This document shows, in pieces, positions 31,937 to 41,387 of a stretch of DNA of 59,276 nt (position 1 is its first letter; each line of letters opens with the position of its first letter). The stretch is from Syntrophorhabdus sp. (GTDB lineage Bacteria; Desulfobacterota; Syntrophorhabdia; Syntrophorhabdales; Syntrophorhabdaceae): positions 1-59,276 of the forward strand of contig JAAYAK010000043.1 in the NCBI GenBank assembly GCA_012719415.1, in the 5' to 3' direction. Under the pieces are notes generated by a model. It worked only from the letters and a program-made list of their open reading frames with translations. It did not search any database and was not told the DNA's origin. The translations under genes were made by a program, and so were the position numbers.

Positions 31937-31997
31937 CTTTCTAACACATCGACGATCATCGTTGCTCGCTCAGACCTGAAAAAAAGAGAGTGTGAAG

Positions 31998-32822
31998 ATG
32001 GCTTCCAGAGCTCCCCTTTTCTATAATCGGCACAGAATAGAACTAGCCTTTATTGTGTCGGTCTTTTTATTGGCTCCCGTTTTTTCGAGCGCTCAGGAGA
32101 TCAACAAGTCTTTATTTGGTGATTATGACACGGCGCTGGTAGTTTATGATCGCGCTTCAGGGAAGGCTGTGCACGCCGACCCTGCTCTTAGCGCTCGTCG
32201 TCTCACGCCCTGTTCGACTTTCAAGATATATAATACCTTGATCGGCCTTGAGCTTGGGTTGATCAAGGGAGCTGAGGAGCCGTGGTATAAATGGGACGGC
32301 GTTAAACGTGAGTTTGAAGAATGGGATAAGGATTTAACCCTTCGGGAAGCATTTGACGTATCGGCTGTGCCGGCGTACCAAATACTGGCGCGTCAGATCG
32401 GCGAAAGCCGTATGAAGGATTACATTGAAAGGATTGGCTATGGTTCAGGCGATATATCGGCCGGTGTTGACATATTTTGGCTTCCACGGCCTGGAGTGAC
32501 GTCTATTAAGATCAGCGCTCATGAACAGGTTGGGCTTTTAAAGAAGCTCCTGGATGGAACACTTCCTTTTTCCGAAAAGAATATAGCGATACTGCGTGAT
32601 ATTATGCAGGTAAAAAAGACCGAAAAAGGAACGCTTTACGGCAAGACCGGTTCGGGTATGGGATCTGATGGAAAATGGAATTTAGGCTGGTTTGTGGGTT
32701 TTCTTGAAAGCGGTGGGACAACATACGTTTTCGCCTGCAATATTACTAATGGGGATGCCCCGTCCGGAAAGGTTGCGCGGAAGATCGTTGAAGATGAGTT
32801 TCGGTCGATGGGGCTTTTATAG
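31998..32822 (+). CDS. Class D (OXA-type) beta-lactamase
   Basis: A 274-aa serine beta-lactamase. A signal peptide (hydrophobic ~15-31, cleavage near SSA-QE) sends it to the periplasm. Class D motifs are in order: S-T-F-K at 73-76 (nucleophile Ser73, Lys76 expected to be carboxylated), S-A-V at 122-124, Y-G-S at 148-150 (usually YGN) and K-T-G at 216-218. WYKWDG and DIFWLPRPG are also OXA-like. ATG 31998 is chosen; GTG 31992 is an alternative. It is visibly more AT-rich than the core genes, and with neighbouring toxin genes this suggests horizontal acquisition. Spectrum cannot be predicted. Confidence 0.92.
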   Translation: MASRAPLFYNRHRIELAFIVSVFLLAPVFSSAQEINKSLFGDYDTALVVYDRASGKAVHADPALSARRLTPCSTFKIYNTLIGLELGLIKGAEEPWYKWDGVKREFEEWDKDLTLREAFDVSAVPAYQILARQIGESRMKDYIERIGYGSGDISAGVDIFWLPRPGVTSIKISAHEQVGLLKKLLDGTLPFSEKNIAILRDIMQVKKTEKGTLYGKTGSGMGSDGKWNLGWFVGFLESGGTTYVFACNITNGDAPSGKVARKIVEDEFRSMGLL

Positions 32823-35440: not shown

Positions 35441-36199
35441 TCAATCCTTTTCCGTTGCCCTTTTCGATCTGCCCATCCTCTTCCGGTAGCTGTCCCCTTC
35501 GATGAAGATCTGGTGGGCGTTGTGGGCCAGCCTGTCAAGGAGGGAGTTGGCCAGGAGCGGATCGTCGAAGAGTCCCATCCATTCATCCAGGGGCCGTGAG
35601 CTCGTGATGACGGTCGAGGACCGCTGGTACCGTTCGATCATCACCTCGTACAGGTCCTGCGCCTCCGATCCCGTCAGCCTCTGCAGACCAAAGTCATCGA
35701 TGATAAGGACATGGGGGCGGATGAGCCCGATGACCTCCTTCCCGAACGAGTGGTCGGCCCTCGACTGGTGGAGCCTTTTAAAGAGAACCTGGGACCTCAG
35801 CATCAGCACATTGAGACCCCTTCTCACCGCACTGTGTCCCAGGGCATTGGCGAGGTGGGTCTTCCCCACGCCGACGGGGCCGCAGATGATGACATTCTCG
35901 TGCCTGTCGGCAAAGCCGAGTCGGAAGAGGTCCTTCACCTTCTCCCTGTCGACGGTGATCGGGGCGTCCCAGTCGAACCGCTCGAAGGTCTGCTCCTGGT
36001 CGAGATAAGCGCTTTTCATTTTTCTCACGGTCCTGCCCTGCTCGCGTCTTTCGATCTCGTCGTTGAGCACGAGCTCCAGGAACTCGCCGTGGGAGAGCTT
36101 CTGGGTCTTCGCATATGACCCTCTTTCCGGCAGGGTGGCAAGGATGCCCCCGAGCTTCAGTCTTTTGAGCGTCTGTTTCAGTTCCGTTGTGATCTCCAT
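35441..36199 (-). CDS. istB: IS21 transposition helper ATPase IstB
   Basis: A 252-aa AAA+ ATPase that activates IstA and selects targets. Walker A GPVGVGKTHLANAL lies near 110-123 and Walker B VLIIDDFGLQ near 169-178. The DnaC/IstB fold is clear, with the N-terminal LGGILATLPERGSYA segment. It starts one base after the istA stop, so translation is probably coupled. The length is normal and no frameshift is seen. Confidence 0.95.
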   Translation of the reverse strand: MEITTELKQTLKRLKLGGILATLPERGSYAKTQKLSHGEFLELVLNDEIERREQGRTVRKMKSAYLDQEQTFERFDWDAPITVDREKVKDLFRLGFADRHENVIICGPVGVGKTHLANALGHSAVRRGLNVLMLRSQVLFKRLHQSRADHSFGKEVIGLIRPHVLIIDDFGLQRLTGSEAQDLYEVMIERYQRSSTVITSSRPLDEWMGLFDDPLLANSLLDRLAHNAHQIFIEGDSYRKRMGRSKRATEKD

Positions 36200-36200
36200 C

Positions 36201-37745
36201 TCATTCCTCCTTTTTCACGAAGTACGCCGCCGGCCGGGCAAACCGGGACGGCAACGGCTCCCGCCTTCTTTCCTCGGTGTCCTCCCTGACGAGGCCCTGC
36301 TGTATGATCTCTTCGACCCTGCGCACGTCGACGAGTTCAAAGGCGAGGGACCGCTCACATGCCTTCTCCACCCTCTCTTTGCCGTACCGGTCGGGCAGCC
36401 TCACGAGCTTCTGCGCCTGGCGCAGCTTTGTCCAGGGGAAGGTCCCCGACAGGAGGATCTCCGCAAAGCGCCGCGCCGAGGGGCCGATCTGCCCCGCCCT
36501 GTCGACATAGTAGGTGCAGCTTCTCATCGCGTAGGGCGCCTTCTCCTTCGGATAGTCGTTGAAGTCCGTCGAACGCTTCCCTTGGGGCACGGCGGGATGG
36601 GTCTTGATGAGTTCTCCCTTGTAGTAGATGCGGAGAAGCCTCGTATCCCTTCTCACCGACACCTCCCGGCCGACATACCGGGTCGGGACGGAGTAGAGGC
36701 TGTTGCCGAAGCGTATGTGGTGGTCGGGATGAACCTTCACGGATCCCCAGCGGGGGACATCGAACCGCTCTCCCGTCAGGGGAAGGAGGGCACCCTTCTC
36801 CTCTTCGTTGAAGACGATGAGCGGCCTCTTGCGCGTGGTCCCGTGGATCCTCATTCCCGCGGTGTCGCGGCACCACCTGACCGCCTCCTCCTGGACATGG
36901 GCGAGGTCCCTGAAGGTCTCCCCGGCAAAGAAGTTCTTCCTCACGTAGGGAACCTCCCGCTCCACCTTCGGTTTGCCCGTCGGGTCATCGGGCCGGGCGG
37001 GATCGATGATAAAACCCCTGGACTGAGAGTACTCCAGGAAGGTCCTGTTGAAGACAGGGGCGTAGCGGTCGGATCTGACCACCGCCGCCTTCAGGTTGTC
37101 GATCACGACCTTTCTCGTCAACCCGCCGAAGAAGACCCAGGCATCCTCCATGCCCAAGATCAGGGACGGGAGGTCCTGGGTGAAGGTCACGTGCACGTAC
37201 TGGTGCCTGCTGGAACAGAGTGTGACCACAAGCCCGTAGACGGACCGTCTCCGTGCGCTGGCTTCGTCGTAGAGGAGGCCCAGTTTGCCGAAGTCCACTT
37301 CCGCCACCTCCCCCGGTGCGGTATCCGCCATGCGCACCGTGGTCCTCGATGGAATGCCGATGTGCACGGACACGAACCGGTACAGGCCCGGGTAGCTCAC
37401 CTCGACGCCCCGTCTTGAAAGCAGGATATGGACCTTCGTCAGGGTAAGATGATCGTCCTTTATCCACGATGCAATCGTTGCCTTGTGGGGAAGGAGGATC
37501 TGATCGAGAGACCTCTGCGGACCGGGCGGGCGGGACTGGATCTCCCTGACGACCTCCCCGGCTATCGTCTCGAGATCGCATGGCCCGTCCCTGCCAAATC
37601 CCTTCTTGTAAGCGAGGCGCAGGTACTTCCTCAGGGTGTTGCGGTCCATGCCCGTCGCCCTCGTGACCGCCCTGATCGAATAACCGTTCTGAAGCCTTCT
37701 CAAAATGTCGACAACATCAACCACCATGTACTCCTTTCTCGCCAT
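36201..37745 (-). CDS. istA: IS21 transposase IstA
   Basis: A 514-aa DDE transposase. The N-terminal helix-turn-helix is YSIRAVTRATGMDRNTLRKYL (residues ~22-41). The rve core supplies D in EVAEVDFGKLG, D in KVVIDNLKAAV, and E in KPKVEREVPYVRKNFF. The C-terminal Mu-type beta domain follows. It is complete and uninterrupted. Confidence 0.95.
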   Translation of the reverse strand: MARKEYMVVDVVDILRRLQNGYSIRAVTRATGMDRNTLRKYLRLAYKKGFGRDGPCDLETIAGEVVREIQSRPPGPQRSLDQILLPHKATIASWIKDDHLTLTKVHILLSRRGVEVSYPGLYRFVSVHIGIPSRTTVRMADTAPGEVAEVDFGKLGLLYDEASARRRSVYGLVVTLCSSRHQYVHVTFTQDLPSLILGMEDAWVFFGGLTRKVVIDNLKAAVVRSDRYAPVFNRTFLEYSQSRGFIIDPARPDDPTGKPKVEREVPYVRKNFFAGETFRDLAHVQEEAVRWCRDTAGMRIHGTTRKRPLIVFNEEEKGALLPLTGERFDVPRWGSVKVHPDHHIRFGNSLYSVPTRYVGREVSVRRDTRLLRIYYKGELIKTHPAVPQGKRSTDFNDYPKEKAPYAMRSCTYYVDRAGQIGPSARRFAEILLSGTFPWTKLRQAQKLVRLPDRYGKERVEKACERSLAFELVDVRRVEEIIQQGLVREDTEERRREPLPSRFARPAAYFVKKEE

Positions 37746-38171
37746 ACCGCCTCCCGTTCGACAAAGAGATAACGGGAGTAGTATGCCCTGATTTCGGCGC
37801 CGGCCGGGTGGGTGAATTAACTTGAAAAAGTGGGTGAGAGATCTTGAAAAAGGGGTGGGTGAACGATCTTGAAAAACAGACCGTCTAAATGGGTGAGCTA
37901 TCTAGAAAAATCACAGTTGTCTCGCGCGATCCCCCGACATCACAGTCGTGTCGGTCCAAAGCAACCGGTACCCTTAATACTGTGAGGATGCCTGAACCTT
38001 CGTCCGCCCCGGCGCTCAGGCGTCTAAATTGTCTCCGAATTGACAGGGCTAAGCAAGAGAAAAGTGGAGAACCGGTGCCTGCCTGCGGGAGAGAAGAATG
38101 AGGGCGCCGAAGAAACAGCGCGGGACAAAGTATCCGTTTTCTGGTAAGAAATTGGAAAGGAGAGCTTCATT

Positions 38172-39595: not shown

Positions 39596-39753
39596 GGCAA
39601 TGTCATTATAGACTTTCTTGATGCATTAGTCATTTGCTAACTCATCTGCTCGGCGTCGCTCAAAAGCGCGATGAGGCCAGACACGAGTAACGTAGAATGT
39701 CCCCTTCGATTACCGGTCTCAACGCGCTACTGCACATGGGTGCGGTCGGCCGG

Positions 39754-39782
39754 TTGAGAAACTTGCCGTATGATGCTATATG
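39754..39782 (+). promoter_or_regulatory. Probable promoter of the His/Cys-repeat protein gene
   Basis: TTGAGA (39754-39759), 17 bp, TATATG (39777-39782), about 50 bp before the ATG, which is preceded by AGGAGG. Confidence 0.5.
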
Positions 39783-39833
39783 TATAACGGACTGACACGG
39801 GTTAACGCCATACCACATAATTAGGAGGACACA

Positions 39834-40283
39834 ATGAAACGGTCGCTGGCCTTAAGTCTTTTTGCTGCAGTTTGCGCGGTATTCTATGTCGTATTATGCT
39901 CCACTGCTGTATACGCAGTATCAGCTCACACTCCTTATGGTCACACTCCCCATGGTCACACTCCCCATGGTCACACTCCCCATGGTCACAATCCCTATGC
40001 TGGGGGTAAGTGCAATGCGGGCTATACCTATACGACATATCAAGGCAAGCAGTTATGCATCAAATGCAACCCCGACTACAGGTACACAAAATATCAGGGC
40101 AAAGAGCTGTGCATCAAATGCAACCCCGGCTACAGTTACACAAAATATCAGGGCAAAGAACTGTGCATCAGATGCAACCCCGATTACAGGTACACAAGAT
40201 ATCAGGGCAAAGAGATGTGCATCAAATGCAACCCCGGGTACACCTATACAACGTATCAGGGCAAAGAGCTGTGCGTAAAATAG
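39834..40283 (+). CDS. Secreted His-rich, Cys-repeat protein
   Basis: A 149-aa protein of unknown function. A signal peptide (hydrophobic ~5-28, cleavage near VYA-VSA) is followed by a His array (residues 32-55) of five-residue units of the form GHTPH. Then five exact-length 18-residue repeats run from C60 to K149, consensus CNPxYxYTxYQGKELCIK, each with two cysteines and several tyrosines. The repeats are also obvious in DNA (54-bp period, 40011-40280). The mature protein therefore has ten cysteines, ten or so histidines and about 17 tyrosines. Metal binding or a disulfide-linked surface structure is an inference. It has a strong AGGAGG site. Confidence 0.85.
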   Translation: MKRSLALSLFAAVCAVFYVVLCSTAVYAVSAHTPYGHTPHGHTPHGHTPHGHNPYAGGKCNAGYTYTTYQGKQLCIKCNPDYRYTKYQGKELCIKCNPGYSYTKYQGKELCIRCNPDYRYTRYQGKEMCIKCNPGYTYTTYQGKELCVK

Positions 40284-40743: not shown

Positions 40744-41142
40744 TCAGGGCAGGGCTGTGAATCCGTACTCGCGAAAATGACGGTCGAAGGTGAATGCTGA
40801 GCGTATGCCCAGTTCACGCATCGTCTCGAAACTGACGCAGTCCACCAGGCTGAGCCCTCTCTTCGAAGCGGCGAGAAGGGCGGCCGTCCCCAGCCGATGT
40901 ATATCGGAGGTGACGAATTCAACAGACAGAACGGGGACGAGATCGTCGCAGAATCCCCGTGCTGCCTCAAGACCCAGTCTGCTCTGGATGAGCGCGCTAC
41001 TCTCCACAAGGACGTAGCTTGTTGTTACCAGGGCCTGCCCGGAGCCTATGAGTTCGCGCCATACACCGGCTGCCCTGGCGTGGTTGTTGTCGTCGGCGTC
41101 CATGATGGCGAAGAGGGCGGAAGTGTCTACGAAGACGCTCAT
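40744..41142 (-). CDS. vapC: PIN-domain toxin VapC
   Basis: A 132-aa PIN-domain ribonuclease toxin. The metal-binding acidic residues are visible: D7 in VFVDTSALFA, E48 in YVLVESSALI, D100 in SLVDCVSFE, and D119 in AFTFDRHF. VapC toxins usually cut initiator tRNA or rRNA. Its ATG overlaps the vapB stop (ATGA), giving coupled translation. Confidence 0.92.
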   Translation of the reverse strand: MSVFVDTSALFAIMDADDNNHARAAGVWRELIGSGQALVTTSYVLVESSALIQSRLGLEAARGFCDDLVPVLSVEFVTSDIHRLGTAALLAASKRGLSLVDCVSFETMRELGIRSAFTFDRHFREYGFTALP

Positions 41143-41387
41143 TGACCGAAAGCCTCGGTCAGGTAGGCGTCGTGTTTGCGGGATATATCTTTCTTACCGG
41201 ACCTGAACTTGCCGGCAATCGTGAGGGCCCGGTTGCGTCTTTCCTCGGAAGCCGGTCCCGTGCCGGCGGCAATGGCTGCTTCAACGGCTTCGCGTATGAC
41301 TTCCGCCATGGGCACCCCTCTTGACGACGCAAGTTGCTTGACTTTTAAGGCCTGTTCTTCGGTAAGCTGGATCTGGGTCCTTATCAT
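41139..41387 (-). CDS. vapB: Ribbon-helix-helix antitoxin VapB
   Basis: An 82-aa antitoxin. The N-terminal ribbon-helix-helix domain (MIRTQIQLTEEQALKVKQLA then VPMAEVIREAVEAAI) binds DNA; the C-terminal part (~45-82) should cover the VapC active site. It is preceded by a promoter overlapped by a perfect 12-bp palindrome, a fitting operator for autoregulation. Confidence 0.9.
   Translation of the reverse strand: MIRTQIQLTEEQALKVKQLASSRGVPMAEVIREAVEAAIAAGTGPASEERRNRALTIAGKFRSGKKDISRKHDAYLTEAFGQ

Follow-up and report, generated by a model that had tools for sequence, protein, structure and literature searches.

In PMC4471590, the choline-binding repeat is described as a unit of about 20 residues made up of a beta-hairpin plus a short linker. 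The gene presented here lies in a window of 59,276 nucleotides from Syntrophorhabdus sp., the whole stretch of DNA that was analysed, and encodes 18-residue repeats which resemble the choline-binding (cell-wall-binding) repeats (CW_binding_1, a beta-beta solenoid) as hairpin units of about 20 residues with aromatic residues, but which differ from them by two invariant cysteines per unit and the lack of tryptophan. This likeness is one of anatomy, with hairpins predicted here, and came neither from sequence nor from fold searches; the window's Pfam matches up to E 10 included no choline-binding repeat. Cysteine-rich repeats of the TNFR, ephrin-receptor-like, NCD3G and furin-like kinds share the spacing C-x-x-G-[YF]-x(n)-C-x-x-C with the 18-mer, a likeness that includes weak profile and structure matches below the cut-offs, while the 18-mer is set apart from TNFR-type repeats by its regular 18-residue spacing with two cysteines only. 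By analogy, the 18-mer may work like a choline-binding repeat or like a minimal TNFR-type cysteine loop. A second array, of the pattern x-[Q/H]-x-P-x, has its five-residue period in common with the pentapeptide repeat proteins (PF00805); it gave no Pfam match to them, and their A(D/N)LxX consensus is absent. In the PF00805 fold, 25 residues make up barely more than one coil. We know of no second matched array in choline-binding modules, and compared with the known kinds of repeats the novel element is the matched arrays.

The gene (39834-40283, forward strand, ATG to TAG) encodes 149 amino acids, and its contig belongs to a draft genome of 3.7 Mb. The product consists, in this order, of a signal peptide, five pentapeptides, a short linker and five 18-residue two-cysteine repeats, followed by the stop codon. 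The features of the locus are:

39752-39833, forward strand: conserved upstream region with the promoter-like pair TTGAGA-17-TATATG (39754-39782) and the strong Shine-Dalgarno sequence AGGAGG, from three orthologous loci
39834-39917, forward strand: signal peptide of residues 1-28, with the cleavage site placed after A28 by eye
39924-39998, forward strand: pentapeptide array, residues 31-55, AHTPY, three GHTPH and GHNPY, of the x-[Q/H]-x-P-x pattern (Tandem Repeats Finder)
40011-40064, forward strand: 18-mer unit 1, residues 60-77
40065-40226, forward strand: 18-mer units 2-4, residues 78-131, C-N-P-[GD]-Y-x-Y-T-x-Y-Q-G-K-E-x-C-I-[KR], one predicted beta-hairpin per unit
40227-40283, forward strand: 18-mer unit 5, residues 132-149, ending in CVK, plus the stop codon
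40356-40664, forward strand: protein of 102 amino acids with one hydrophobic stretch, at the orthologous locus only (also L003, L040), not part of the family

Inspection puts an A-x-A-like motif (VYA|VSA) at the end of the signal peptide, around residue 28, and A28 was invariant among the aligned relatives. The gene product is thus likely a small exported protein, as an earlier sequence-only reading of this DNA had proposed. The signal-peptide cysteine argues against a lipoprotein, as its context (VVLC) is not that of a usual lipobox and family member L009 does not have it. The linker AGGK of four residues separates the pentapeptides from the first cysteine of the 18-mer array, whose units start at residues 60, 78, 96, 114 and 132. 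Five tandem 18-residue units with two cysteines each, with the frame ending at the fifth, had been described before and were confirmed from the open reading frame. Tyrosine accounts for 17 of the 121 mature residues, and the putative rod formed by the repeats is basic with a pI of about 9.

Using Tandem Repeats Finder, a 15-bp array was detected at 39926-39999 (4.9 copies, 93% matches, score 120) and a 54-bp array at 40037-40281 (4.5 copies, 86%, score 343). Both periods had been reported by the sequence-only reading; its bounds for the histidine array were corrected from residues 32-55 to 31-55. Its further proposal of near-exact DNA repeats and a recent expansion fits the three central 15-bp units, the only identical ones, but fails for the 54-bp array. 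The 54-bp units are not near-exact, with third positions varying in 13 of the 18 codons, first positions in four and second positions in four. Among the five 18-mer units of the window gene dS was 1.09, dN 0.11 and omega 0.10; most relatives with finite estimates showed within-gene values of omega between 0.07 and 0.38, the paralogues of genome G389 of 0.5-0.7, figures which are descriptive because unit pairs are non-independent. As synonymous sites are near saturation while the protein is conserved, the 54-bp array is old and under purifying selection, and a recent expansion of it was ruled out by the synonymous divergence between units.

Searches of Pfam, NCBIfam, PHROGs and PDB sequences yielded no convincing curated match, in line with the earlier failure to recognise a family. 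For the window protein, IBR_1 (PF22191) scored 20.2 bits at a cut-off of 27 and NCD3G 13.4 bits at a cut-off of 38.9. Ephrin_rec_like had a best E of 4e-4 in three of eight members, with scores short of the Pfam cut-off. One relative reached 35.1 for IBR_1, but solely by adding up its repeats; the profile was covered in part, and matches to other families conflicted with this one. No convincing relative was found in the phages, plasmids and viral contigs searched; one plasmid row, an SdrD-B-like repeat protein, was a weak match and not counted as a relative. A match in Mycobacteriaceae (L005) was limited to query residues 31-55, which form the histidine array, and was left out of the family as a low-complexity match. 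Literature searches on such a repeat family found nothing. Relatives of the gene were found only among uncultured Deltaproteobacteria of its own genus and family, and in one other family of the phylum. At the level of the whole window, the nearest named relatives are MAGs labelled Syntrophobacterales bacterium Delta_02 and Deltaproteobacteria bacterium UBA1386. Of 46 genomes of the class covered by the genome search, about nine contained members, and these belong to a single family; three tandem paralogues were found in one genome (G389) of another family of the phylum. These three genes lie at L035:994-2448, and their pentapeptide arrays carry glutamine in one case and histidine in two. Fourteen genes share the layout; they come from about 10 genomes spread over the genus, the family and a further family. 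Distant relatives in G434 and G427 possess C-x-x-G-[YF]...G-x-x-x-C units without the pentapeptide array, and a fainter one was seen in G376. Judged by these searches, none of the databases consulted includes the family, which has so far been seen in just one group of uncultured bacteria.

About eighty bases upstream of the gene were almost invariant in three orthologous loci, and DNA farther upstream was about 80% conserved. Most paralogues have a pair resembling TTGAC-16/18-TATA 29-51 bp before the ATG. Only four upstream regions beat about 99% of shuffles, and the best-scoring pair of the window was a different one. A GC-rich hairpin (GGTGGGCRGG...CCTGCCCACC) without a T-run is found 40-50 nt past the stop codon in several family members (L003 at 868-902, and downstream of the genes in L036, L037 and L038); a hairpin about 45 nt past the stop recurs in L003, L007, L015 and L016. 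It is missing in the window, which has lost it. The conserved region, the promoter-like pairs and the hairpin are at most suggestive of expression signals. The 102-residue neighbour is absent beside the paralogues and gave no family match. An operon partner was rejected, as neighbouring genes differ among the paralogues, and the family protein therefore probably acts alone. Upstream of the gene, at 35441-37745, lies an IstB/IstA-like pair, IS21-type by resemblance, with three copies of a 25-bp direct repeat beside it (37806-37876). In L004 no more than about 0.3 kb separates the flanking genes, so the window carries extra DNA at the IS21-like pair. An open reading frame at 31992-32822 resembles class D beta-lactamases by sequence (STFK motif). 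Downstream, on the reverse strand (40744-41387), an antitoxin-like gene is paired with a PIN-domain toxin-like one, an arrangement that resembles VapBC. The family member of G029 (L041:5150-7546) lies near a tyrosine-recombinase-like gene and may thus be located where a mobile element ends.

In every family gene read to its start, the pentapeptide array begins at residue 31. What the relatives keep is the layout and not the histidines, with x-[Q/H]-x-P-x as the general pentapeptide and a nearly invariant proline. Two orthologues of the window gene carry QNPY, and QSPF, QAPY, QSPY, QSPS, QTPS, QGPF, HGPI, HGPY and HAPS occur in other family genes. Besides the window gene, G031 and two G389 genes carry histidine in the pentapeptide, and the mature chain of several relatives is free of histidine. 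The earlier suggestion of metal binding as the purpose of the histidine array is not supported, given these glutamine-bearing and histidine-free relatives. Pentapeptides are nearly uniform inside each gene and different from gene to gene, a pattern which looks like concerted evolution. The change from glutamine to histidine at position 2 apparently happened more than once, even between the neighbouring G389 paralogues, and the histidine array of the window is therefore a lineage variant and not a defining feature.

The number of 18-mers ranges from 3 to 6 among the relatives, which bears out the earlier expectation of a variable copy number. For the 11 complete genes, pentapeptides and 18-mers were counted as 5:5 (five genes), 6:6 (three genes), 4:4, 3:3 and 5:3 (L003). 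Equal counts were thus obtained in 10 of 11 genes (permutation p about 2-3e-4) when the degenerate last pentapeptides of the G389 genes (THAVG, THGVY, TQTVN) were taken in, a way of counting chosen after seeing the data. Strict counting, with degenerate last pentapeptides excluded, left seven equal genes out of 11 (p 0.04). The pattern itself was noticed post hoc, and as the family genes are related, both p-values overstate the evidence. On a short tree of the non-array parts and the cap region, about four coupled changes stand against one uncoupled change. A single tandem duplication cannot add a unit to each array, because the arrays are separate blocks. The match of copy numbers suggests that the short repeats are aligned on the cysteine-bearing ones in a rigid, self-locking rod.

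Cysteines 1 and 16 were present in all 57 units read; as units were recognised by these two cysteines, the weight of this count lies in the unbroken arrays. Strongly conserved are also G4, Y/F5, Y7, T8, Y/F10, G/N12 and K/R18. Leucine at position 7 was found in 7 of 14 first units and in none of the 43 others (p 1.3e-5), which defines a cap class; the first unit of the window gene is without this cap-type leucine. The genome encodes a DsbC-like protein and, next to a thioredoxin-fold CPPC protein, a VKOR-like one, whose VKOR match is below the curated cut-off; together they make disulphide formation plausible; DsbB was looked for in this genome and not found. AlphaFold2 was run on an alignment of three close sequences, taken from the window and its related loci. 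For the mature chain, where removal of the signal peptide raised the mean pLDDT to 72.7 in one of five models (the other four 59-62; pTM 0.50), it predicted at modest confidence five hairpins with a period of 18 and, at a period of 5, a short strand for every pentapeptide. A hairpin per 18-mer was also predicted for the full-length protein, with the pentapeptides mostly disordered. Foldseek (E <= 0.001) and VIA (Z >= 2) gave no significant match for either model, which weighs little at such model confidence. The rows for R-spondin, TNFR and EGFR had E values of 0.3 or worse, TM below 0.3 and VIA Z under 2, for models of medium to low confidence.

The reading which we tentatively prefer, at somewhat less than an even chance, is that of an exported structural or binding protein with two co-folding arrays, a disulphide-stapled hairpin rod with a pentapeptide strand zipped along it and a probable anionic or glycan partner. 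Each 18-mer would form a beta-hairpin from a strand YxYTxY, a turn QGK and a strand KELCIK, and a disulphide between its C1 and its C16 would staple it. This pairing is preferred because it leaves no cysteine over, while pairing of C16 with C1' of the next unit would free the first and the last one. Stacking of successive hairpins would give a short rod, in which the first unit is often a distinct cap. By way of the short linker, the pentapeptide array would fold back and lie along this rod with one x-[Q/H]-x-P-x strand per hairpin, and both arrays would therefore have to keep equal copy numbers. With its regular ladder of tyrosines, the basic rod would probably bind a partner beyond the inner membrane, one that is anionic or a glycan. 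That two unlike tandem arrays of one chain, with units of 5 and 18 residues, are zipped one to one, with slippage in one matched in the other as a built-in bookkeeping of copy number, is a possible but rather doubtful part of this proposal.

Alternatively, the pentapeptides could be a flexible proline-rich spacer between the export signal and the cysteine-hairpin array, with equal counts due to common ancestry and chance. The prevalence of 5:5 genes, the 5:3 gene L003, the strict equality in just seven genes and the disorder in the full-length model speak for such a spacer, which we nevertheless consider rather unlikely, given that 6:6, 4:4 and 3:3 are found on separate branches although the arrays are separate blocks, and that the proline and the start at residue 31 are so well kept. 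A metal-binding protein, in which CxxC pairs across unit boundaries (C16-x-x-C1') hold zinc or another metal with help from the histidine array in some members, is less probable still. It would explain C-[ILV]-[KR]-C at almost every 18-mer boundary, the weak Pfam resemblance to the zinc-binding CxxC families IBR_1, zf-LYAR and Zn_ribbon, and the pentapeptide histidines that the window gene has in common with G031 and with two genes of G389. However, the mature chains of most members are without histidine, the Pfam matches are incomplete and exclude one another, which is what cysteine periodicity would give, and the first C1 and last C16 would stay unpaired, yet are retained in all complete family genes.

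Those same end cysteines, of which C16-C1' pairing always leaves one C1 and one C16, might join each molecule to the next, head to tail, in a fibre while the interior CxxC pairs close within the chain. The high tyrosine content would suit such a polymer; unit-wise C1-C16 pairing, however, accounts for the same cysteines without leftovers, and no partner or surface-assembly genes recur next to the paralogues, which makes a polymer improbable. A modified-peptide precursor that carries repeated cores would agree with the leader-like N-terminus and the near uniformity of the pentapeptides in each gene, but is very improbable in view of the Sec-type signal peptide, the joint conservation of both arrays and the lack of a modification enzyme recurring next to the paralogues.

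Two points are new relative to the sequence-only reading: the copy numbers of the two arrays usually match, and the 18-mer is predicted to be a hairpin. A striking histidine array can, as this family shows, be one lineage's variant of a conserved pattern. If the arrays of the preferred hairpin rod are locked one to one, the family would offer a natural modular rod with a length set by matched repeats, a useful scaffold for design, and a test case for the way in which distinct tandem arrays are kept in step.
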